A stretch of 16,208 nt of DNA from Chloroflexota bacterium. Lineage in GTDB: Bacteria > Chloroflexota > Dehalococcoidia > Dehalococcoidales > RBG-16-60-22. Below the pieces are notes generated by a model that was given only the letters and a program-made list of their open reading frames with translations, was not told the DNA's origin and ran no database searches. The translations under genes were made by a program, and so were the position numbers. How positions within the stretch are numbered: the first letter of the stretch is position 1; every line of letters begins with the position of its first letter. Positions 4,574 through 16,208 of the stretch are shown in pieces. The stretch is taken from assembly GCA_025358235.1 (NCBI GenBank), contig JANYKH010000303.1, positions 1 to 16,208 on the forward strand, given 5' to 3'.

Positions 4574-4850
4574 TGAGCCTGAAAATCTACGAATAGACCC
4601 ATACAAAATTGGCTTCAGCCTCGAAACAGCCATCAAATAATATCCTCATGATTGTCCAGGCAAACTTCCCTTAGAGCATATTGCGCTTTAACTTAATCGT
4701 CCTTTGTTCATTACCTCCCGGATTACATTCGCTATCACAATGCTGAGTGATAGTCCACCAAGAATTCAATTTTATGCTAAATGGTTTGGTAGTATGGTGA
4801 CCAAATGTCGGAGGATATCCTGCCCTTCGCGAGATGTCGCCCCTTTTCAA

Positions 4851-4878
4851 AAAGCGGTTTTGGTGCAAAAACCGCTTT
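4851..4878. terminator. Perfect 11-bp hairpin, possibly a bidirectional terminator
   Basis: AAAGCGGTTTT (4851-4861) pairs perfectly with AAAACCGCTTT (4868-4878) around a 6-base loop. A-rich sequence on its left gives a T run after the stem on the minus strand, and the stem ends in TTT on the plus strand. It lies about 100 bases upstream of the ABC exporter genes. Read-through insulation is a plausible role, but no minus-strand gene in the window needs it. Confidence 0.45.
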
Positions 4879-4982
4879 GCAAGGTATAAATCTAAGAAGA
4901 AAACCTTTTATACAGATCGATACCGGTTTCCGTCTTTCGTGTTAAAATATGTGGGTTGACTGATTTGAGCAACCTGAGAAAT

Positions 4983-5705
4983 ATGGCCGAATCTAAAATA
5001 GAACCAAATTTGAAAGTAACCGGCCCCAGGATGATAAGTCTGCGGAACGTAACAAAGGTTTATACCATGGGCAAAGTGGAAATTATGGCTTTGCGCGGGG
5101 TGAGCCTGGACGTGGACGAAGGCGAGATGGTGGCCATCATCGGGGCGTCAGGCTCCGGCAAGTCAACGCTAATGAATATCATCGGCTGTTTGGACCGGCC
5201 CACCTCGGGGCAGTATTTGCTGGGCGGGGTTGAAGTGGGCCAATTAAATGACAACGAACTGGCTGTTGTCCGCAGTAAGAAGCTGGGATTCGTTTTCCAG
5301 GACTACAGTCTGCTGCGGCGGGCTACCGCAGTCAACAACGTGGAACTGCCGCTGATGTACAGCGGGGTGCGCCAGAAGCGGGAAAGGGCCATGGAATCGC
5401 TGCGGCGGGTGGGGCTGGCCGAACGGGCTAACCATAAACCCACAGAACTTTCCGGCGGCGAACAGCAAAGAGTGGCTATTGCCAGGGCGTTGATAAATCA
5501 ACCTAAACTGATTCTGGCGGATGAACCAACCGGCAACCTCGATAGTGTGGCGACCGGCGAAATTATGAATCTGTTCGACCAGCTCAACAGGGAGGGTATC
5601 ACCATCGTCATGGTGACACACGAAATGGAGCTGGCCCACCGGTGCAAACGCATCGTCCGCGTGCGGGACGGTAAAATTGTTGAGGATCAACTGACTAACC
5701 GATGA
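4983..5705 (+). CDS. ABC transporter ATPase, MacB/LolD (ABC3 exporter) type
   Basis: From the ATG at 4983 this is a 240-residue nucleotide-binding subunit with every ABC motif in order: Walker A GASGSGKST (~54-62), Q-loop FVFQD (~103-107), signature LSGGEQQRVAIARAL (~156-170), Walker B LILADEPTG (~176-184) with a following D-loop, and switch histidine VTHE (~211-214). The spacing and the 'TKVYTMGKVEIMALRGV' opening are typical of MacB/LolD/FtsE-type ATPases. The start is uncertain: TTG at 4956, ATG at 4983 and ATG at 5031 are all in frame, and none has a strong ribosome site; family alignment begins close to 5031. Its stop overlaps the start of the permease by four bases (ATGA), so the two are translationally coupled and form one complex. 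The exported substrate is unknown. Confidence 0.93.
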   Translation: MAESKIEPNLKVTGPRMISLRNVTKVYTMGKVEIMALRGVSLDVDEGEMVAIIGASGSGKSTLMNIIGCLDRPTSGQYLLGGVEVGQLNDNELAVVRSKKLGFVFQDYSLLRRATAVNNVELPLMYSGVRQKRERAMESLRRVGLAERANHKPTELSGGEQQRVAIARALINQPKLILADEPTGNLDSVATGEIMNLFDQLNREGITIVMVTHEMELAHRCKRIVRVRDGKIVEDQLTNR

Positions 5706-6952
5706 AAATCCTGGATTCGGTCAAAACCGCTTTCATGTCCCTTTTCGCTAACAAGCTGCGATCCAGCCTGACGATGCTGGGCGTAATTATTGGTGTCGGC
5801 TCGGTCATTACTCTTATGGCGGTGGGGCAGGGCGCCCAGAATTTGATAACCTCCCAGATTTCAGAACTGGGTTCTAACGTATTGTTCGTGCAGCCCCGCA
5901 ACCCGGACGCCCCCGGTTTCGCCGGCACCGCACCCGGTTTTACCGTGCCGTCTCTGACGCTGGCCGATGCGGAAGCCATCGCCAAAATCCCGGGTGTGTT
6001 AGGGGTGGCTCCGACAAATGAAAACTTCGTGAAAGTGACTTCCGGCAACGAGGAAGCCACCGTGGTGCTCGAGGGGACGACGCCGCTGTACCTGGAGATT
6101 TCCAACTTCAAAATGGCCACCGGCCAGTTTATCCAGGATAAAGACGTCAACAGCCGCAGTTCGGTGATCGTACTGGGCAGCAAACCGGCCGGGACCCTGT
6201 TCGGCAACGCTGACCCCATCGGGCAGGTGATTAAAATAAAAGACCGGCACTTTACGGTAATTGGAGTGCTGGCGCCCAAAGGCGGTTCGTTGTTCGGGCT
6301 TAGCAATGACGACATCGCCATGATGCCGATAACGGCCTTTCAGACCCGCCTTTACTCCTCCAAGACGGCCTCCGGCGAAGAGGCCGTGGCAGCCATCGCC
6401 ATCAAGTTAACTGACCGGTCTTTCATTGACCCGGTCCAAACGCAGGTCACGGAGTTATTGCGCAAAGAACATCATTTAACCGCCAGAGAGGGGGATGACT
6501 TCGCGGTCGTCAGCCAGGAACAATTGCTGGGGATTTTCAACCAGATTACCGGCGTTTTTACCATCTTCCTTGGGTCCATCGCGAGCATTTCATTGCTTGT
6601 CGGCGGCATCGGCATTATGAACATCATGCTGGTATCGGTCACGGAGCGTACCCGTGAAATCGGCATCAGGAAGGCCGTGGGCGCGAAGAGGCGTGATATT
6701 TTGATGCAATTTTTGTTTGAGGCGGCCACCCTGAGCGTAACAGGCGGCATCATCGGGGTGCTGGGGGGTTCGCTTATCGCGTTCGGCATATCACAAATCA
6801 ATTTTGGGGGAACTATAATCAACGCCGTGGTTTCGCCCATGATCGTGCTGCTCGCCCTCACCGTATCGGTCGTCATCGGGCTGGTTTCAGGCATCTACCC
6901 GGCGATGCGCGCAGCCAGTTTGAATCCCATCGACGCGCTGCATTACGGTTAA
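5702..6952 (+). CDS. MacB/FtsX-like ABC transporter permease
   Basis: A 416-residue permease with the classic ABC3 layout. A first membrane helix (~20-40, in LTMLGVIIGVGSVITLMAVGQG) is followed by a large extracytoplasmic MacB-type core (~45-280). Three clustered helices follow (~283-308, ~340-365, ~383-403). The conserved coupling region GIMNIMLVSVTERTREIGIRKAVGA lies between the second and third helices and contacts the ATPase. The C-terminus GIYPAMRAASLNPIDALHYG is also a family hallmark. It overlaps the ATPase gene by 4 bases. Such pairs work by mechanotransmission, usually with a periplasmic adaptor in diderms. No adaptor (HlyD/MacA) gene is visible next to this pair, which would fit a monoderm-like organism or an adaptor encoded elsewhere. 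Confidence 0.93.
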   Translation: MKILDSVKTAFMSLFANKLRSSLTMLGVIIGVGSVITLMAVGQGAQNLITSQISELGSNVLFVQPRNPDAPGFAGTAPGFTVPSLTLADAEAIAKIPGVLGVAPTNENFVKVTSGNEEATVVLEGTTPLYLEISNFKMATGQFIQDKDVNSRSSVIVLGSKPAGTLFGNADPIGQVIKIKDRHFTVIGVLAPKGGSLFGLSNDDIAMMPITAFQTRLYSSKTASGEEAVAAIAIKLTDRSFIDPVQTQVTELLRKEHHLTAREGDDFAVVSQEQLLGIFNQITGVFTIFLGSIASISLLVGGIGIMNIMLVSVTERTREIGIRKAVGAKRRDILMQFLFEAATLSVTGGIIGVLGGSLIAFGISQINFGGTIINAVVSPMIVLLALTVSVVIGLVSGIYPAMRAASLNPIDALHYG

Positions 6953-7844: not shown

Positions 7845-8114
7845 CTATTTACCGTCTTTCCAGTTCCACCATTTCAGCTTCTCGGCGTCCCGGCCGCCGT
7901 CCGCAAAGTAGACCGCCGTACGGAAAACGTATAGCAAGCACCGGTCCTGTTTTACACAGGCGTGTTGATTGGAAAGCTCATATAGCAATTCCGCATTTTT
8001 GCCTTTGAGGTCGGCCACCGAAAGTATGCCGATGTCATGGAGGTCCCTGGCGATAGACCTGCCAACGCCGGGGATTTCAGTCAGCGATTGCGGGTCAGCG
8101 GAAAAGCGTTTCAT
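7845..8114 (-). CDS. Cdd1-like helix-hairpin-helix protein
   Basis: The frame is open further upstream, through the tRNA gene, but the natural start is the ATG at 8112-8114, just after the tRNA 3' end. This gives an 89-residue protein beginning MKRFSADPQSLTEIPGVGRS. Residues 11-32 form a helix-hairpin-helix motif (LTEIPGVGRSIARDL), and the second half contains the cysteine pair and YVFRTAVYFADGG segment typical of the 'pathogenicity locus' Cdd1 family. HhH motifs usually contact nucleic acid without sequence specificity; the biological role of the family is not established. The ribosome site is weak. It is convergent with sod and lies only 17 bases downstream of the tRNA-Ser gene on the same strand, so it may be co-transcribed with the tRNA. 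Confidence 0.8.
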   Translation of the reverse strand: MKRFSADPQSLTEIPGVGRSIARDLHDIGILSVADLKGKNAELLYELSNQHACVKQDRCLLYVFRTAVYFADGGRDAEKLKWWNWKDGK

Positions 8115-8131
8115 AACGTTTAGTGTGGGGA

Positions 8132-8223
8132 TGGCGGAGGGGGTGGGATTCGAACCCACGGTACTCCATAAGAAGTACAACGGTTTTCAAGACCGTCACC
8201 ATAAGCCGCTCGGACACCCCTCC
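8132..8223 (-). tRNA. trnS(UGA): tRNA-Ser (anticodon UGA), CCA end encoded
   Basis: Read on the minus strand the gene starts GGAGGGGTGTCCGAGCGG. The acceptor stem GGAGGGG (8217-8223) pairs perfectly with CCCCTCC (8136-8142), the discriminator base is G, and CCA is encoded at 8132-8134. The anticodon arm ACGGT-CTTGAAA-ACCGT places TGA in the loop. The T arm is GTGGG-TTCGAAT-CCCAC. A long variable arm (GTACT...AGTAC) marks it as a class II serine tRNA. The gene is complete. Its 5' end faces the integrase gene of the neighbouring element. Confidence 0.97.
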
Positions 8224-8237
8224 ATGTTAGAAACTGA

Positions 8238-8304
8238 AGCTAACTATAACCTTGGCGGGCTGGCAAAGTTCGGGAAAATACAAAATAGCTAACGGATAGC
8301 TAAC
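8238..8304. repeat. Three AGCTAAC direct repeats between tRNA and integrase
   Basis: AGCTAAC occurs at 8238-8244, 8287-8293 and 8298-8304; the last two belong to a longer 9-base repeat, ATAGCTAAC at 8285-8293 and 8296-8304, set 11 bases (about one helical turn) apart. The last overlaps the integrase stop. Short direct repeats at helical spacing beside an integrase and tRNA are what arm-type integrase or Xis binding sites look like, but this is inference. Confidence 0.45.
8243..8248 (-). promoter_or_regulatory. Possible -10 box for the tRNA-Ser gene
   Basis: On the minus strand TATAGT (8248-8243) lies 19 bases before the tRNA 5' end, a usual distance for a tRNA promoter. A convincing -35 at 17 bases was not found; TTGCCA is only 12 bases away. 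If real, the promoter sits at or beyond the presumed element junction. Confidence 0.3.
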
Positions 8305-9478
8305 CAACTTTATTTTCCAGCCCATTTTTAGCCTCGGGTATTAAATCCAGATCATCGAACTTCCGGGCCGCGGCTTCTTGCATTCCCGGAGCGATATGCG
8401 AGTAAGTATCCAAGGTCACTGATATTGTAGCATGACCTAAACGCTCTTGCACTATCTTAGGGTGTGCTCCTTGCTTTAACATCAACGAGGCGTGGGTATG
8501 TCGGGCGTCGTGGAAACGGATCGGTTTCACTCCGGCTTTAACGGCCAGTAAGGGCCAGGCTCGCGTTACGGTGTTTGGTCTGATCGGCTTCCCGTTACCG
8601 TCCCCGAATACCAGCTCATCTTCGGGGATCTTCCTACCGACCTTTTCGGCTTCTGTATCACGCGCTTCCCTGTATTGGGTCATAACCAGGGCGGCAGACG
8701 GCGGCAGCGCGATAGTTCGGCGGCTCTTGGCTGTCTTGGGCTGCCGGTAGATATAGCTACCATCCCTGAGTTGGTGAACAGTCCGGTTAATTGAGACCTG
8801 GCAGTAGATCAGGTCTACGTCTTCCCATCTGAGGGCTAGGAGTTCACTCCGGCGCGCGCCGGTGTAGAGGGCCAAGACATAAAGGGCATAATACCGAGTC
8901 TCCCGGGCGGCCTCAAGGAACTGCTTTACTTCGTCCTCGTTCCAGACGACCATCTGGGGCTTTTCAGCATGGGGCGGGTCTACGTTATCTGCTACGTTCC
9001 TGAATACCAGCCCCCATTTGCAGGCCGTCTCTAGGGCCTTGTGGATGGCCATGTGATGATGGCGGACGGATTGGGCACTTAGCCCGCCAGAGCCGTTGCA
9101 GCGCCCGTTTTCGAGGGTTTCCGCATAGTAGCGCCTGACATGTTCCGGCTTTAACTTTGATAAAGGGATTACTCCCATCTTGGGGATTAAATGCTCGTTA
9201 ATGATTGAGGCGTATCCCTCGTAGGTACGCGGGGCCAGGTTGGGTAAAGCGTATTCTTTCAGCCAATGCTCAAGGAATTCGCCAAAAGTGACCTTGCTGG
9301 GGTTTATGAGTGAGCCGGTGTCCTTCTGGTGCAGGGCATCGGTCAAAACCTTTTCCGCTTCCGGCTTGGTCCCCTTTACCGATATCCAACGCTGTTTACG
9401 CTTGCCGTTCGCGTCCCTGCCAAGGTCCAGAACCACCGTCCAGCTATTCTTATACCGCTTTACTAGATGGCCTCTCAT
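8300..9478 (-). CDS. int: Site-specific tyrosine recombinase (phage-type integrase)
   Basis: A 392-residue protein of standard length for phage and ICE integrases. The N-terminal ~55 residues form an arm-type DNA-binding domain (RYKNSWTVVLDLG...KRKQRWISVKG). A SAM-like core-binding domain follows at ~64-165 (FGEFLEHWLKEYA...), then the catalytic domain. Catalytic residues are all present: Arg209 (TGARRSE), a beta-hairpin lysine in QPKTAKSRR (~248-251), His323 and Arg326 (HDARHTHASL), His349 (ERLGHATISVT) and the nucleophile Tyr359 (DTYSH). It should cut and rejoin DNA at att sites to integrate and, with the HTH protein at 11301, excise the element. A GGAGGT site lies seven bases before the ATG. 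The start overlaps the stop of the 508-residue gene by four bases (ATGA), so the two are co-translated. It reads toward the tRNA, ending 76 bases from it. Confidence 0.96.
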   Translation of the reverse strand: MRGHLVKRYKNSWTVVLDLGRDANGKRKQRWISVKGTKPEAEKVLTDALHQKDTGSLINPSKVTFGEFLEHWLKEYALPNLAPRTYEGYASIINEHLIPKMGVIPLSKLKPEHVRRYYAETLENGRCNGSGGLSAQSVRHHHMAIHKALETACKWGLVFRNVADNVDPPHAEKPQMVVWNEDEVKQFLEAARETRYYALYVLALYTGARRSELLALRWEDVDLIYCQVSINRTVHQLRDGSYIYRQPKTAKSRRTIALPPSAALVMTQYREARDTEAEKVGRKIPEDELVFGDGNGKPIRPNTVTRAWPLLAVKAGVKPIRFHDARHTHASLMLKQGAHPKIVQERLGHATISVTLDTYSHIAPGMQEAAARKFDDLDLIPEAKNGLENKVG

Positions 9479-11001
9479 GACTGACCTCCATTCGGCGTAC
9501 TGGTAAGCTTTTCATATTGTGCTTTAACTTCTCGCCATTCTGTAGGACCATAAGAACTGCTTTTTTTATGCCTGGGATGCCGTTTAACCCATTCGTCTCT
9601 AATAGTTGTCCAAAAATCTTTGATTGTCCCTGACGCATAAGTATCAGGCGGCCCGCCTTGACTTTGGACTAGGTCAAGAAACTCTTGTGTACGTTCTTTT
9701 CGCTTATTCTCCAATTCACTCTTTACTTTTTGGTCTGCCTCTTTGAGGGCTTTGATATCATCCCCGTCCTCATCATCACAGATAAATCTTACCTGTGTCT
9801 CGCTATTAAAGCCGGGATGGGCGCTCAACAGTTCGGCGGCGTGCAATTTCCGCCAGGTCGCCATTTGCTCTTCCGTGACTTCATAGCCAACTGTTTTTAG
9901 TAAAGTTGCATTAAAAGGGATTTGAGGCAAGTTGGCTTTGGACTGTATTTCCCACTCCTCGATGAAAGAACCAGTCAAAGGAGGTTCGAGTAGGAGACGC
10001 CGTATATTATCTGTTTTAACCCATTGAATAGTCTTACTTCTTATTCTCAACTGCCGGGAATACATAGAATCGTCAAGGAAGCCGCCCGAGTCCGGCATGA
10101 ACCCCCCGTCCTCCCTACTTTGCCGTACCTTTTCAAAATATCGTGTAATTCTTTCACCTCGCGGCAGATTGTTCCATAGTGGGCCTTTGCTCAAGTAGGC
10201 CAGCCAATACGCTGCTACCAAGTCAGAATCTTCCAGCAGCACCTCGTCCGGAAGGTCATCACCACCCATCATCTCCAGATGCCGGGGCGGTTCAGCCCGG
10301 ACGTGCTGCCATACGGCTTGTTCAACGGAATGAACACTGTTTGGAGGCGCTATCAGCGAACCTCCGGCCTTTTGTATTTTCTCTAATACCTCCGGCTCAA
10401 GTGCGACCTTATAAACTTTGTCCAGTCTTAATGCGGTGTTATGTTCCCAGGGAGGAAAGAATTGAGAATCAGCATTGTTAGAGTTAAAATGCTCCTCTTT
10501 GGCATTTTCTGAGCAAATTTCAAGAAGACTGTAATACCATGAATTCCGGAGCATTTCAAGATTTTTAGAAACTTTAGCCGAGTATTGACCCTTTGGGCTA
10601 TTATCAGGCGCGAAAGAATAAACGGGAAACTTAGGTAAATATCTCAAATATGTAACCCATCTTGCCTGCCTCACAGTTAAGGGACGGTCCAGTGCCAGAG
10701 AAAAACGCCAAATCTCGAACAATTCCCCGGTTTGTTTGGGATCCAAACCATTTTCCAGAGAGGCAGCAATAGACCAGGGGTTGTCAAGTGGGTCAGGTTC
10801 TGCCCTAGCGGCATTTATCAATTTTTCGAGCGTTCCATCCTCAGGGCAAAGTTCGCCTTGTTCCTTTATCAATTTTTTAATCAGTGGAACGAGGGCTGTC
10901 GCTACGAGATTTCTGTTTTGCGGGGCCCGTGCCTGATTTTTAATTAACGCATGAATCCAAGAAGGATAGCCTGGCCGCCCTCTTTTCGGTATTTTCTGCA
11001 T
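9475..11001 (-). CDS. Unrecognised 508-residue protein, coupled to the integrase
   Basis: A soluble, charged protein without signal peptide or membrane segment. The N-terminus is basic (MQKIPKRGRPGYPSW), which could touch DNA. The middle is rich in tryptophan and aromatic residues (for example QARWVTYLRYLP and AYWLAYLSKGPLW). A lysine/glutamate-rich helix that could be a coiled coil lies near residues 425-450. I find no Walker, HNH, RVD or other catalytic motif by eye, and I do not recognise the family. GGAG seven bases before the ATG supports the start. Its stop overlaps the integrase start, so the pair forms one minus-strand operon divergent from the regulatory and replication genes. The coupling suggests an accessory function in integration/excision or in element maintenance, but that is inference only. 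Confidence 0.88.
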   Translation of the reverse strand: MQKIPKRGRPGYPSWIHALIKNQARAPQNRNLVATALVPLIKKLIKEQGELCPEDGTLEKLINAARAEPDPLDNPWSIAASLENGLDPKQTGELFEIWRFSLALDRPLTVRQARWVTYLRYLPKFPVYSFAPDNSPKGQYSAKVSKNLEMLRNSWYYSLLEICSENAKEEHFNSNNADSQFFPPWEHNTALRLDKVYKVALEPEVLEKIQKAGGSLIAPPNSVHSVEQAVWQHVRAEPPRHLEMMGGDDLPDEVLLEDSDLVAAYWLAYLSKGPLWNNLPRGERITRYFEKVRQSREDGGFMPDSGGFLDDSMYSRQLRIRSKTIQWVKTDNIRRLLLEPPLTGSFIEEWEIQSKANLPQIPFNATLLKTVGYEVTEEQMATWRKLHAAELLSAHPGFNSETQVRFICDDEDGDDIKALKEADQKVKSELENKRKERTQEFLDLVQSQGGPPDTYASGTIKDFWTTIRDEWVKRHPRHKKSSSYGPTEWREVKAQYEKLTSTPNGGQS

Positions 11002-11049
11002 TTATTTCTCCGTGATAGCTAGAATAAATTCCTTGTAGGCGTGTATTAT

Positions 11050-11066
11050 TTCATATTTAATATGAA
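11050..11066. promoter_or_regulatory. Palindromic operator candidate in the divergent control region
   Basis: TTCATAT-TTA-ATATGAA is a perfect 7-bp inverted repeat with a 3-base centre, between the divergent starts at 11001 and 11104. It overlaps a TTTAAT -10-like hexamer (11056-11061) with a weak TTGTAG 17 bases upstream. The position and symmetry suit binding of the dimeric XRE regulator encoded immediately downstream, giving autoregulation and control of the integrase operon. Confidence 0.45.
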
Positions 11067-11103
11067 TATACATGAACTAAGAATTTATTTCAAGGAGGTA
11101 TTA

Positions 11104-11301
11104 ATGGCTCCCAATAAATTAAAGGAAATGAGGGAAAAAGCTGGATTATCTCAAGTTGAGTTGGCCCGGCGGGCGCGGATGGCCTCGCAAAATCTTAGCG
11201 CTATAGAAGGGGGGAAGCTACTCCCGTGGCCTAAAGTGAAAAAGGCCCTCGCAAAGGCTTTGAAGACTACTGAAAAAGAACTGTTCCGGGAGGTGGAGTA
11301 A
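11104..11301 (+). CDS. XRE-family helix-turn-helix regulator
   Basis: A 65-residue protein consisting almost entirely of one Cro/C1-type HTH domain: LKEMREKAGLSQVELARRARMASQNLSAIEGGK (~6-38), with recognition helix around residues 27-35, then two short helices. I chose the ATG at 11104 because AAGGAGG (11092-11098) precedes it at ideal spacing; an upstream in-frame ATG at 11041 has none. As the first gene of the rightward operon and adjacent to a palindrome, it is the likely master switch (repressor) of integration versus replication. The next gene begins on the last base of its stop codon. Confidence 0.92.
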   Translation: MAPNKLKEMREKAGLSQVELARRARMASQNLSAIEGGKLLPWPKVKKALAKALKTTEKELFREVE

Positions 11302-11492
11302 TGACAGAAACCGGGCAAGATTTATGCCTGACGGTGGCCGAGGCCGCGAAGTTGATTCACGTTAGCCGGAATCAGGCATACGCCCTTGTATCTGAAGGTA
11401 GGCTCCCCGTGATCAGATTCAGCGAACGGTGTATCAGAGTTCCCCGCGCAGCCCTTCAAAAAATGATGGACGAGGCCAGGGTAAGCGCCTGA
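11301..11492 (+). CDS. Excisionase-type (HTH_17/MerR-like) DNA-binding protein
   Basis: A 63-residue protein built of one winged-helix domain of the excisionase family: LTVAEAAKLIHVSRNQAYALVSEGRLPVIRFSERCIRVPRAAL. The helix-turn-helix comes first (~10-31), then the wing and the typical 'R.p..al..' ending. Such proteins bend DNA at att sites and turn integrase toward excision, or act as small regulators. Its start overlaps the XRE stop by one base (TAATG) and its stop overlaps the next start (TGATG), so it is part of a tightly packed operon. A role as Xis is favoured by the integrase nearby but is not proven. Confidence 0.88.
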   Translation: MTETGQDLCLTVAEAAKLIHVSRNQAYALVSEGRLPVIRFSERCIRVPRAALQKMMDEARVSA

Positions 11493-12115
11493 TGACTTAC
11501 GCAGACACAACGGTAATAGAACATCTTGCCCAGTCACGCAATTACCGGGGCTGGCGCACTCCGGACCTGGTATGTGAGGCGGACAATATGCGCGGCCAGT
11601 ACGAGGACATAGCAGCCTGCCCCTTTATCCTGGAGGCTGAAACGCCAACCGGATGCACGCAGGAAGAGTACATAGACGATTCTCTTTTTTACTTGAGGGC
11701 TTCTATTGAAAGCATCCTAAAGGAGATTAATCGGCGCGAGACGATGCAGCTATCGAATGTGATTCTCGGCAAATCAATCATTGAAGCAATCAAGGAAAAG
11801 ACCGGTGAACAAGGCTTGATAGATGCGATCTCATGGTACTGCCAAATTGAAACTCATCACAACATCTGGAAATTTAAATGCACGGTCCACGGAGACGGGC
11901 ATGACCGAGACGCATCCGGCGTCATTTATCTTAAGGAGATCCGCTGGCACTGTTACGGGTGCAATAAGGGCGGGGATATCTTCGATGCGGTAATGCACTT
12001 CGAGCACGTACCTATGAGTGAGGCCATTAAGAAGTTGGCCAGATACACCGGAATTGATACCAGGCCATTCCAGCCAAAACCGATTCCACAAGCTCAAGGC
12101 GGTGTGATTGTATGA
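11492..12115 (+). CDS. CHC2 zinc-finger primase-like protein (zinc domain only)
   Basis: A 207-residue protein if started at the ATG that overlaps the previous stop (TGATG at 11490-11494); an upstream in-frame start at 11429 would overlap the excisionase gene needlessly. Residues ~125-190 match the CHC2 zinc-binding domain of DnaG-type primases: Cys130-x2-His133 and Cys154-x2-Cys157, the 'WHCYGCNKGGDIFDAV' core, and the helix 'EAIKKLARYTGI'. The N-terminal ~110 residues are not recognised. No TOPRIM or other primase catalytic domain is present, so it cannot prime alone and probably partners with the downstream helicase or a host or element-encoded primase. It overlaps the helicase gene by four bases. 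Confidence 0.88.
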   Translation: MTYADTTVIEHLAQSRNYRGWRTPDLVCEADNMRGQYEDIAACPFILEAETPTGCTQEEYIDDSLFYLRASIESILKEINRRETMQLSNVILGKSIIEAIKEKTGEQGLIDAISWYCQIETHHNIWKFKCTVHGDGHDRDASGVIYLKEIRWHCYGCNKGGDIFDAVMHFEHVPMSEAIKKLARYTGIDTRPFQPKPIPQAQGGVIV

Positions 12116-13404
12116 CGAAAACCCCCATCAATAAGCCAGAAATCACCATTGGAATTAATAGGTACTCCTACTGGTGGAGTGATATAGCAGTCCGAGTTCA
12201 GGTAGACCGGATCGAGGATGAGGGCATGGGGGAGGTGTCCGTTTACCAAGAGACCGATACCCGGCGGCTTCTAACTCTTTCCCGTGTCAACCTCATGTCT
12301 AACCAGTCTTGCAGCCAGTTGTCCAAGCGCCTGGAAAAGAACCTCCCCGACGTGGACTGGGACAGCCTGATAACCTGCGTTGCCTACATTACCATGGAGG
12401 AACACCGGAAAGGTGAGCCCGCGGTCCCGATCGGCAAAAAACCAGCCGTTATGAAAATTGAGTACCAACTGTACCCAATTCTGGAGATGAACCAGCCCAC
12501 GACGCTATATTCCATCGGCGGAAGCGGAAAGTCGTATACCGCGGACTTAATCGCCTGTCTGGTGCAACTAGGGGCTACGGGCTTCCCCGGGAGCCCGAAA
12601 CTGTGGCTGCCGACTCCCGCCAATGTTTTATACCTGGACTGGGAGGCCTCTTTTCAGGACCATGAGCGCCGGGTGTGGGCCATAAAGAAAGGTCTGGGGA
12701 TAACTACCGAAGAGACGTTCTTATACAGGCGGTGTTTTCAGCCCCTAGTGAACGATCTCCCTGCAATACAGCGGATGGTCTCTGATAACAAGATAGGACT
12801 GGTTATCATTGACTCCCAGATGGCCGCCTCCGGGAATGGGCAGGACCCGGCTCAGCAAGCCAGTCAATATTATAACGCCTTGCGGTCACTCCACTGTACC
12901 AGTTTGACCATTGACCATGTTAACAAATCTGACTGGAAGGGTAACGGTAGCGAGTCCACTGGCCCTTACGGCAGCGTGGTTAAGTACAACAGGAGCCGAT
13001 CCCAGTTCGAGTTACGGAAGTCCCAGACCGTCGGCAGCGGCTTCCTGGAATTGTCCCTTATACATCGGAAAAACAATGACGGCAGGTTGCTGCAGCCCAT
13101 GGGCATCCGCATTAACTTTAACGAGGATGCGGCCGGGGACCTTGACAGCGTGACCTTCACCAACTGCGAGGTGGCGGATAATCCCGTGCCGCCGTGCACA
13201 CTCAGCGTACCGGAACAAATTTTAGCTTATCTCAAACGAAGCTCCGGCTACGTCAAGGACATTGCCGAGGCTATCGACAAGACGGAATCTCATGTACGCA
13301 AAGAATTGACCGCTCTGAGGGCAAAGAACAAAGTTGTGAACATCGGTGATAACAAATGGGGCTTAGCCTATAAAGGAGAAGAATTACCAATTACTAATTA
13401 CTAA
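12112..13404 (+). CDS. RepA-like AAA ATPase (replicative-helicase loader/helicase type) with C-terminal winged helix
   Basis: A 430-residue RecA-like/AAA_25-type ATPase of the plasmid RepA class. Walker A is in TLYSIGGSGKSYTADLIA (~131-148); a VLYLDWEAS block follows (~172-180); Walker B is GLVIIDSQMAAS (~229-240); and a TSLTIDHVNKSD block (~263-274) carries the sensor-like histidine. Residues ~365-415 form a winged HTH (PEQILAYLKRSSGYVKDIAEAIDKTESHVRKELTALRAKNKVV). The first ~115 residues are unassigned. In plasmids and mobile elements such proteins unwind the origin and work with a primase, as here, where the primase-like gene overlaps it by four bases. Remarkably, its last codons already lie within the AGTAATT repeat array, so gene end and probable origin are fused. 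The C-terminal winged helix is a candidate for recognising those repeats. Confidence 0.88.
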   Translation: MTKTPINKPEITIGINRYSYWWSDIAVRVQVDRIEDEGMGEVSVYQETDTRRLLTLSRVNLMSNQSCSQLSKRLEKNLPDVDWDSLITCVAYITMEEHRKGEPAVPIGKKPAVMKIEYQLYPILEMNQPTTLYSIGGSGKSYTADLIACLVQLGATGFPGSPKLWLPTPANVLYLDWEASFQDHERRVWAIKKGLGITTEETFLYRRCFQPLVNDLPAIQRMVSDNKIGLVIIDSQMAASGNGQDPAQQASQYYNALRSLHCTSLTIDHVNKSDWKGNGSESTGPYGSVVKYNRSRSQFELRKSQTVGSGFLELSLIHRKNNDGRLLQPMGIRINFNEDAAGDLDSVTFTNCEVADNPVPPCTLSVPEQILAYLKRSSGYVKDIAEAIDKTESHVRKELTALRAKNKVVNIGDNKWGLAYKGEELPITNY

Positions 13405-13556
13405 ATTACTAACCACCCCTAAAGGGGGGGTGGTAGTAAGTAATTAAGGAAATTACAGGTGTAATTACACAGTAATTGAAGCTAAAAATAGACCTTAGTA
13501 ATTGATGAGTAATTTTGAGGTAGTAATTTTGACAGTAATTTTGACAGTAATTTTGA
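13389..13556. repeat. Iteron-like AGTAATT array, candidate replication origin
   Basis: Ten copies of one 7-mer occur in 168 bases. The first three are in inverted orientation (AATTACT at 13389, 13396 and 13404) and seven are direct (AGTAATT at 13439, 13471, 13497, 13508, 13522, 13534 and 13546). The last four extend to AGTAATTTTGA, and the final three repeat with an exact 12-bp period. The palindrome GTGTAATTACAC (13459-13470) and a hairpin (13406-13439) lie between the two orientations. The stretch is AT-rich, as expected for an opening region, and sits directly after a RepA-like helicase. This layout matches plasmid iteron origins by analogy; origin function is inferred. Confidence 0.7.
13406..13439. 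terminator. Strong GC hairpin inside the repeat array, at the end of the helicase operon
   Basis: ACCACCCC (13412-13419) pairs with GGGGTGGT (13427-13434). After one bulged A, TTACT (13406-13410) pairs with AGTAA (13435-13439), giving 13 bp around a 7-base loop. There is no T-tract after it, so it may terminate the rep operon poorly; it could equally be a single-strand origin or primase recognition structure within the replication region. Confidence 0.5.
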
Positions 13557-13660
13557 AAACACTCAAGGAAAAACACCCCTTGCCGCCCCGGGTGCCCATG
13601 CTCTTGAGAGACAAGTTGGAATTTATATACGACTCGGAATCGAGATGAGGAGAAGCGAAA

Positions 13661-14026
13661 ATGATAGAACGCAACAGGTGCAAAAGTACAACCTCAACAG
13701 GGAACCCCTGCAAAGGGTTAGCCCTTCGGGATGGATACTGCTTCAGCCACTCTCCGTCATTAGAAGAGAAAAGAGACCAAGCCCGTTCGCAGGGCGGTAA
13801 GAACAGCGCCAAGATAGCCCGCCTTCGGTCGCTGGTACCCCCGCGCTTGATAGAGGTTTACGACAAGCTGGAGAACGCGCTCGGTGAAGTGCATCAAGGA
13901 AAACTTAACCCCGGACAAGCACAGGCCATGGCGTCGATCGCACGGGCAATGGTGGCCGTCCTGACAGCCGGGGAACTGGAGGAAAGAGTACGTTCGCTTG
14001 AGGACAATTCAAAGGAAAATAGATAG
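13661..14026 (+). CDS. Small protein with N-terminal Cys/His zinc-like motif
   Basis: 121 residues, preceded by an AGGAGA ribosome site (13648-13653). The N-terminus reads NRCKSTTSTGNPCKGLALRD and continues GYCFSHSP. Cys7, Cys17, Cys27 and His30 are spaced like the short zinc-binding module found in many phage and mobile-element small proteins ('C..tt..G.pC...a...g.C..H'). The rest is helical and charged and ends in a likely coiled coil (ELEERVRSLEDNSKE). DNA binding or a regulatory role is possible; function is unknown. It is the first gene after the repeat array and starts a run of small same-strand genes. Confidence 0.8.
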   Translation: MIERNRCKSTTSTGNPCKGLALRDGYCFSHSPSLEEKRDQARSQGGKNSAKIARLRSLVPPRLIEVYDKLENALGEVHQGKLNPGQAQAMASIARAMVAVLTAGELEERVRSLEDNSKENR

Positions 14027-15675: not shown

Positions 15676-15715
15676 CTAAATGATCCAGGCCGAATTAAGA
15701 ATAACGAGGGCAAGG

Positions 15716-16208
15716 ATGTTTCTTAAAATAAAATACCTACTTATCCTGGGCCTCATTCTGGCTTTGATTACGGCCTGTGCACCAACGACAACCGTAACGG
15801 TAACTGCACCGGCTTCAACCAGACCTCTCACAAGCACAAGCCAGCCGCCTAGCGCACCCATTACCAGTGCGATTGCCACGCCTCAAGCCACCTCCGCGAC
15901 TGCAGTAGAGTATCAAGTAGCAAGGGTGGTTGACGGGGATACCATAGAAGTCTCGTTAAACGGCAAGTCGTACACGGTAAGATACATCGGCATAGACACC
16001 CCGGAAACAGTCCATCCGGGCGAACCAGTCCAACCTTATGGTCCGGAGGCTTCAGCCAAGAACAAGGAACTGGCAAGCGGCAAGACCGTCCGCATGGAAA
16101 AGGATGTATCCGAGACTGACAAGTACGGGCGCTTGCTCCGGTACATCTGGGTAGGTTCCCTGTTTATCAATGCGGAGTTGGTGAAGCAGGGATTCGCCCA
16201 GGCTGTCT
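15716..16208 (+). CDS. Thermonuclease (staphylococcal-nuclease family) lipoprotein, cut by the window end
   Basis: The first 164 residues are present and the frame runs off the window. A signal peptide ends in a lipobox ITAC with Cys21 as the lipidated residue, followed by a Thr/Ser/Pro-rich linker (~22-63). The nuclease domain begins near residue 65: VVDGDTIEV (Asp73), RYIGIDTPE (Arg89, Asp94, Thr95, Glu97) and TDKYGRLLRYI (Arg139). These correspond to the calcium-binding and catalytic residues Asp21, Arg35, Asp40, Thr41, Glu43 and Arg87 of the staphylococcal enzyme, so it should be an active calcium-dependent DNA/RNA nuclease tethered outside the membrane. The ATG at 15716 has a purine-rich site just upstream (GAGGGCAAGG). 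Roles could be nucleic-acid scavenging or barrier to incoming DNA. Confidence 0.93.
   Translation, partial: MFLKIKYLLILGLILALITACAPTTTVTVTAPASTRPLTSTSQPPSAPITSAIATPQATSATAVEYQVARVVDGDTIEVSLNGKSYTVRYIGIDTPETVHPGEPVQPYGPEASAKNKELASGKTVRMEKDVSETDKYGRLLRYIWVGSLFINAELVKQGFAQAV

Follow-up and report, generated by a model that had tools for sequence, protein, structure and literature searches.

A putative replication origin of convergent iterons and a GC hairpin directly behind the RepA-like helicase gene of a Dehalococcoidia integrative element

The stretch of DNA analysed here, referred to throughout as the window, is the whole of contig JANYKH010000303.1 (16,208 bp) from a 1.52-Mb, 76%-complete Chloroflexota genome in 329 contigs, and it carries an integrative element in which the gene of a RepA-like helicase (AAA_25, RecA fold) ends inside an array of short repeats arranged convergently around a GC hairpin. 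It is suggested, with a probability of roughly three in four, that this array is the replication origin of the element and that the helicase, whose gene immediately precedes the array, serves as the initiator.

The helicase gene (12112..13404, + strand, 430 aa) runs into three inverted copies of the iteron (AATTACT, - strand): copy 1 (13389..13395) lies within the last codons, copy 2 (13396..13402) reaches one base into the stop codon, and copy 3 (13404..13410) begins at the last base of that codon. The hairpin follows at 13412..13434 (no strand assigned), reads ACCACCCC-TAAAGGG-GGGGTGGT with the core C4-TAAA-G7, and is bounded on its far side by seven direct copies (AGTAATT, + strand) at 13439..13445 (copy 4), 13471..13477 (copy 5), 13497..13503 (copy 6), 13508..13514 (copy 7), 13522..13528 (copy 8), 13534..13540 (copy 9) and 13546..13552 (copy 10). 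The form AGTAATTTTGA occurs four times, at 13508 (copy 7), 13522, 13534 and 13546, and the last three of these starts are spaced by exactly 12 bp. A first-pass annotation, made from the letters alone, had described ten copies, three inverted and then seven direct, around a GC hairpin, with an exact 12-bp period in the last three and with the first inverted copies at the end of the helicase gene, and each of these statements was borne out. In the 180-nt stretch 13381-13560, which is 70% AT, the top 7-mer is present 10 times, and among 2000 dinucleotide shuffles one reached 8 copies and none reached 10; outside the array, the 16,208 bases hold a single further copy of AGTAATT/AATTACT, at 1701. 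Folded as single-stranded DNA, the segment 13389-13450 gives -14.2 kcal/mol (z = -3.8), which none of 200 shuffles equalled; the stem score of the window hairpin taken alone (11.0) fell short of the highest among 20 shuffles (11.5).

The protein comprises a RecA core at about residues 101-352, a C-terminal winged helix at 366-418 in the predicted structure and a disordered tail at 422-430. PF13481 (AAA_25) is the sole Pfam family above its cut-off, besides a weak HTH_5 match, and in structure comparison the fold matches the hexameric helicase RepA of RSF1010 as the top row, tied with RAD51 rows. By sequence, the winged helix matched a Z-DNA-binding winged helix at a non-significant E of 0.033, and VIA-align matches barely cover it. 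The tail that overlaps the array has a predicted local distance difference test score (pLDDT) under 50 and is absent from nearly all of the family-alignment rows shown (26 of 52). The helicase family ends at about a conserved W-G-L, residues 416-418 of the window protein, and the overlapped tail is an extension without predicted structure. The first-pass annotation had called it unusual for a helicase gene to end inside its own origin; this was not supported, since copies beginning within the gene or its stop codon were found in no fewer than 8 of the 36 array-positive loci described below, the window included, and such an overlap is therefore ordinary for these loci.

Relatives of the helicase were sought in viral contigs and genome contigs, where scans with the single window sequence found none and the family alignment used as query, unlike the single sequence, did find them. 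The alignment held 52 family proteins, and loci were fetched with it and with two single sequences, one scan contributing the best 80 of 137 relatives. At each of 91 non-redundant loci (90 in practice, L065 being too short) the sequence judged reached from 45 nt ahead of the helicase stop to 255 nt past it, and an array was called where one 7-mer was present at least four times and at most 1 of 200 shuffles was as good. By this test an array stands behind the helicase in 36 of the 90 loci. Control windows were judged by the laxer limit of at most 1 in 100 shuffles, and an array was found in 1 of 85 windows upstream of the helicase and at 33 of 1339 3' ends of other open reading frames (ORFs) of the same loci (at least 150 codons, six frames). 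The first-pass annotation had proposed looking for its own 7-mer downstream of homologous helicases; arrays are indeed there, and the word is not the same, varying by locus between CGTATCA, CGTAACA, ATTAACA, ACTTACA, CGGGACA, TTGGACA, CGTAGCA, CTAACAA and others. The layout is kept in relatives with these other words, GC-rich ones included. Loci L097, L098 and L101 were scored negative and not counted, and degenerate arrays are visible there by eye. Arrays are found more often where the C-terminal winged helix is complete (25 of 39 loci against 11 of 51 others; Fisher 7e-5, relatedness not corrected). In loci obtained later, a second caller, which takes only words ending in CA and judges them by mononucleotide shuffles, found arrays in 9 of 27 (two more were too short) and in 7 of 12, as against 14 of 668 control 3' ends; this caller misses the window array because the window word lacks CA. 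Among distant helicases and primase-helicases, arrays were also observed behind the gene in L007 (AACACAT, 9 copies), L111 (AGTGTTG, 7 copies) and L116 (GGCAAAA, 4 copies).

The centre of these arrays follows a grammar of its own. The GC core was defined as a C-run, AT and a G-run, or as a G-run, AT and a C-run, and outside the array-positive stretches it was found in 6 of 54 array-negative stretches and in 43 of 1946 other windows of array-positive loci. In the 14 arrays where the core lies between copies, one mismatch being allowed, the nearest copies are inverted in all 14, and the gap between them is 18-26 bp in 12, with a median of 23 bp, about two helical turns. The hairpin score exceeds shuffles by a wider margin in loci with an array than in those without one (Mann-Whitney 8e-5), and the hairpin beats all 20 shuffles in 23 of 36 of the former and 18 of 54 of the latter.

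The relationship was also approached from the opposite direction, with the hairpin as a DNA query. A search of viral contigs with CCCCCTWAAGGGGGG alone returned at least 120 stretches, of which the first 80 were used and then the other 40, previously unexamined; arrays were scored in 130 nt on either side with the hairpin itself left out. In the first 80 loci an array was present at 39 of 74 non-redundant sites, with the word inverted across the hairpin in 34, and in the remaining 40 loci at 17 of 36 sites, 15 of them inverted. The control hairpin CCCCCATTTGGGGGG (52 stretches) had an array at 2 of 39 non-redundant sites with enough flank (Fisher against CCCCCTWAAGGGGGG 1.3e-7), and random windows of the same loci had one in 7 of 240, judged by 50 shuffles instead of 100. 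About half of the CCCCCTWAAGGGGGG sites are without an array, and some sites resemble terminators. Among the first 80 loci, 33 of the 39 sites with an array and 25 of the 35 without one have an ORF of 100 aa or more that points at the site and ends within 350 nt of it, and AAA_25 was found in 20 of these 33 upstream ORFs as against 6 of the 25. Toprim_3 (6), Prim-Pol (3) and CHC2 (2) were also found among the 33, so that the layout extends to primase-helicases outside the family of the window protein. Closely similar arrays of the hairpin and CGGGACA were seen in viral contigs L355, L375, L384 and L387. In L355 and L375 they lie behind proteins of 670 and 676 aa; the C-terminus of neither aligned to the winged-helix model, and another DNA-binding domain may therefore read the same kind of array.

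Named phages were reached through the distant relatives. Translated searches (tblastn) with four family helicases against a phage collection, with the window helicase against plasmids and with the L111 protein against plasmids gave no match; the protein of the distant locus L007 had matches in 282 phage records, those listed being matched via its primase part, and other distant primase-helicases match many phages. From the matches of distant primase-helicases 13 phage records were picked by hand, and in 3 of them an array lies directly behind the primase-helicase gene: Rhizobium phage 16-3 (p101; CGTGACA, 14 copies), Salicola phage CGphi29 (SLPG_00009; GGGGACA, 5 copies, with a hairpin) and Roseobacter phage CRP-811 (CTACAAA, 11 copies, with a hairpin). 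The cumulative GC skew minimum lies 1.1 kb from the array in CGphi29, 4.6 kb in CRP-811 and 12.2 kb in 16-3, and clearly backs an origin at the array only in CGphi29.

One candidate rule of base-residue recognition was tried, in which iterons ending in GACA go with K, R or Q, and those ending in AACA with a small residue, at the position following the V-R that is conserved in the recognition helix (column 395 of the A1 hidden Markov model, HMM), a pattern first noticed by eye. The training set was 36 loci with a CA-ending word, a different set from the 36 array-positive loci, and in it GACA went with K/R/Q in 6 of 8 (the exceptions being T in L126 and E in L124, the latter in a truncated alignment) and AACA with other residues in 12 of 13 (the exception being K in L071). 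In an unbiased scan of 240 column-by-base tests the recognition helix holds 5 of the top 7 columns. On the core tree the recognition class changes at least three times (24 of 25 rows; L124 was too short). The rule was frozen before it was applied to later loci. The first hold-out gave 1 of 1 for GACA and 3 of 3 for AACA, and in a loose reading below the threshold six more loci fitted and L188 did not; the second, for which a different, C-terminal HMM was used on 30 proteins, most of them unalignable at this position and some of the fits short and weak, gave 4 of 4 and 1 of 1; the third gave 0 of 2 for GACA (L518 and L525). Pooled, the hold-outs stand at 5 of 7 for GACA and 4 of 4 for AACA (Fisher two-sided 0.061), and the rule, having partly failed, is regarded as a lead and not as a result.

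Several of these observations weigh against an origin read by the helicase. By the array test, 54 of the 90 helicase loci lack an array, and in 14 of these the C-terminus is complete; homologues lacking repeats at this place had been named in advance as evidence that would tell against an origin, and such homologues exist alongside the 36 that carry repeats. The GC core is present in only 15 of the 36 array-positive stretches, and its pattern was written after the arrays had been seen. No column in the unbiased scan survived Bonferroni correction (best p 0.001), the recognition rule fails in two of the seven hold-out GACA loci, and it is inapplicable to the window, the word of which is not of the NNxACA form. 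Lastly, 10 of the 13 hand-picked phages, mycobacteriophage Reprobate and BFK20 among them, have no array behind the primase-helicase gene, and in the three that do the GC skew minimum is near the array in one.

Given that hairpins at gene ends are often terminators, the hairpin could instead terminate the helicase operon, with the repeats as operator sites through which a regulator acts on adjacent genes (XRE, HTH_17 or the ORF downstream). The window does encode XRE and HTH_17 proteins, hairpins that beat all 20 shuffles are also found in the array-less loci (18 of 54) and some CCCCCTWAAGGGGGG sites, such as that in L321, have a T-rich tail and the look of simple terminators. Nevertheless this is unlikely: a T-run follows the core hairpin on the helicase strand in none of 14 arrays, and the arrays follow the helicase, with 1 of 85 upstream stretches holding one. 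Moreover, a terminator search of 13300-13700 did not call the window hairpin and returned one terminator-like site, on the other strand (13582-13564), and no sigma-70 promoter-like site was found in the same interval.

Iteron-like repeats serve partition and copy control too, which raises the possibility that the array is a centromere-like partition site or an incompatibility site and not a replication start. We consider this very unlikely, as no ParA/ParB/ParM/ParR-type family was found by Pfam among ten window proteins scanned, on a contig cut at 16,208, and viral contigs show the layout in association with replicative helicases and primase-helicases. The element encodes an integrase and an excisionase-like protein, for which the array could be an accessory or arm-type site; this is a highly improbable role for the array, which lies about 3.9 kb from the integrase gene and has counterparts behind helicases of viral contigs that were picked regardless of any integrase, and a separate repeat, AGCTAACG/C at the integrase stop codon of the window and of L008, fits arm sites better. 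Least credible is a decayed or chance repeat without function: the region is 70% AT, yet ten copies arose in none of the 2000 shuffles, and relatives share the layout with other words, some of them GC-rich.

The best reading remains an iteron-type origin associated with the helicase. The first-pass annotation had compared the array with the origins of theta plasmids, and this part is not retained: neither a Rep_3-type nor a RepC-type initiator was matched among the ten window proteins scanned, and the unit is 7-8 bp. At such an origin, the C-terminal winged helix of the helicase would bind the iterons, and convergent words two turns apart would place two helicase rings so that they face each other across the hairpin/AT centre; this centre would then open, and replication would start there after excision. 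Priming would fall to the CHC2 protein encoded in the overlapping upstream gene or to host enzymes, and the hairpin may have its role in melting or in priming. More broadly, the chances seem to us evenly balanced that the window represents a widespread and so far unnamed class of origins, in which a RecA-fold helicase (RepA/DnaB side) or primase-helicase with its own origin-binding winged helix is encoded directly before the origin and reads element-specific words of 6-8 bp, placed convergently and two helical turns apart around a hairpin (C4-5 TWAA G5-7, or G-run, AT, C-run) that is kept while the words diverge. If this is true, one protein would do the work shared in the host by DnaA, DnaC and DnaB, and the words would give each element private replication. 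To our knowledge, the replication start sites of phages and integrative elements in uncultured bacteria are mostly unknown; a rule placing the origin directly behind the AAA_25 helicase gene, together with a searchable hairpin, would allow origins to be predicted in many viral contigs as well as in Dehalococcoidia elements, and would supply cognate protein-DNA pairs with which to study how an initiator helicase changes specificity.

The element spans from 8300 towards the contig end, its right end lying beyond the contig. It encodes a tyrosine integrase (8300..9478, - strand; PF00589, E 2.5e-27; phrog_1, E 2.3e-85), the gene of which overlaps by 4 nt that of a 508-aa protein (9475-11001, - strand) without a match in Pfam, PHROG or PADLOC; weak homologues of the latter were seen near the helicase in L002 and L101. 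An XRE protein (11041-11301, Pfam scan) and an HTH_17 excisionase-like protein (11301..11492, + strand; PF12728, E 8.9e-12; PHROG excisionase matches) precede the CHC2 zinc-finger, primase-like protein (11429..12115, + strand; PF01807, E 2.3e-10; PHROG DNA primase matches), whose gene overlaps the helicase start by 4 nt and in which no TOPRIM domain was found. The same protein also matches the PADLOC model RTasDnaG-like (E 5.5e-10), probably via its zinc finger. Directly behind the array lies a DUF5763-like ORF (13661-14026; below Pfam's cut-off), homologues of which were seen behind the helicase in L002, L100 and L116, and a staphylococcal-nuclease homologue (15680-16207; PF00565, E 1.1e-18) is cut by the contig end. 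On the left, chromosomal side is a TctA family transporter (441-2057; PF01970, E 2e-117). A tRNA-Ser(TGA) (8132-8223, - strand) has its 5' end and not its 3' end towards the integrase, an orientation unlike that of tRNA-Ala in L008. In a search for the attachment site, the tRNA-Ser segments tried gave no second copy in the genome, except for a 20-nt match with two mismatches on contig C145. A short direct repeat, AGCTAACG/AGCTAACC, was observed at the integrase stop codon in the window (8287-8305) and in L008 (about 4725-4745), and it may be an integrase arm site. The best relative is in the order-mate genome G031, at a site identical in sequence to L008, the helicase of which is 55% identical to that of the window. 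Gene order is the same: tRNA-Ala (4594-4668), integrase (4740-5918), orf372, XRE and HTH_17 (seen in L002, which is the same locus), AAA_25 helicase (7965-9239), and then the array with a homologue of the 13661 ORF behind it; no CHC2 match was found in L008. No phage packaging or interference genes of the type known from Staphylococcus aureus pathogenicity islands (SaPIs) and phage-inducible chromosomal islands (PICIs) were found among the element proteins scanned, the contig ending at 16,208.

Among known replication systems, theta iteron plasmids have a Rep_3/pi-type initiator beside iterons of 17-22 bp. The window differs from these in its unit of 7-8 bp with a period of at most 12 bp, and no Rep_3-type initiator was found among the ten window proteins scanned with Pfam. 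The helicase has the RepA helicase fold of RSF1010; unlike RSF1010 (incompatibility group Q, IncQ), in which a separate RepC binds the iterons, the window protein has its winged helix fused to the helicase, and on the incomplete contig the ten proteins gave no Pfam match to a RepC-type iteron-binding initiator. The primase-like protein next to the helicase is of the CHC2 zinc-finger kind and not RepB', and Pfam and PHROG matched no other primase on this incomplete contig. According to the available parts of the accounts cited here, the plasmid pRN1 has a protein, ORF904, with a C-terminal winged helix, and a stem-loop 3' of the gene that is required for replication and kept while its sequence changes between plasmids (PMC4234260); unlike the window protein, ORF904 joins a superfamily 3 (SF3) helicase to an archaeo-eukaryotic primase, and its stem-loop is about 100 nt long and without iterons. 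The integrative element Salmonella genomic island 1 (SGI1) has an iteron oriV immediately downstream of rep, and its initiator differs in having a RepA_C domain, no helicase domain being named in the part available (PMC7433901), and in the satellite PLE (phage-inducible chromosomal island-like element) an iteron origin is bound by a RepA_N initiator (PMC7145576). Helicases of the RepA/DnaB type with a C-terminal winged helix, for which origin recognition by that domain has been proposed, are described in mobile elements as PrimQH-type proteins (PMC5862659). The available text of that account uses the word 'iteron' 0 times and names no array or hairpin behind the gene, and the window helicase, unlike PrimQH, is not fused to a primase.

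The closest likeness is to SaPI Rep and to Cch2 of the staphylococcal cassette chromosome mec (SCCmec), which have a C-terminal DNA-binding domain and a short-iteron origin directly downstream of the helicase gene; the helicase families of SaPI Rep, Cch and Cch2 are DUF927 and Primase_Cterm/D5 (PMC7581432, available part). As in SaPI Rep/ori, the window array, a putative origin, is directly 3' of the helicase gene, and the protein has a predicted C-terminal winged helix; unlike there, the helicase is a RecA-fold AAA_25 protein and not DUF927 or D5/Primase_Cterm, and a sequence-specific GC hairpin is added between the convergent iterons. No description of arrays with such a hairpin behind RepA-like helicases was found in the open-licence papers searched, which likewise yielded no account of this helicase family in the role, of the searchable hairpin core or of the breadth across viral contigs. 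In summary, the design itself is known from SaPI and SCCmec elements, and the comparison suggests that a SaPI-like arrangement, in which a helicase reads the origin behind its own gene, has also been built on a RecA-type helicase.
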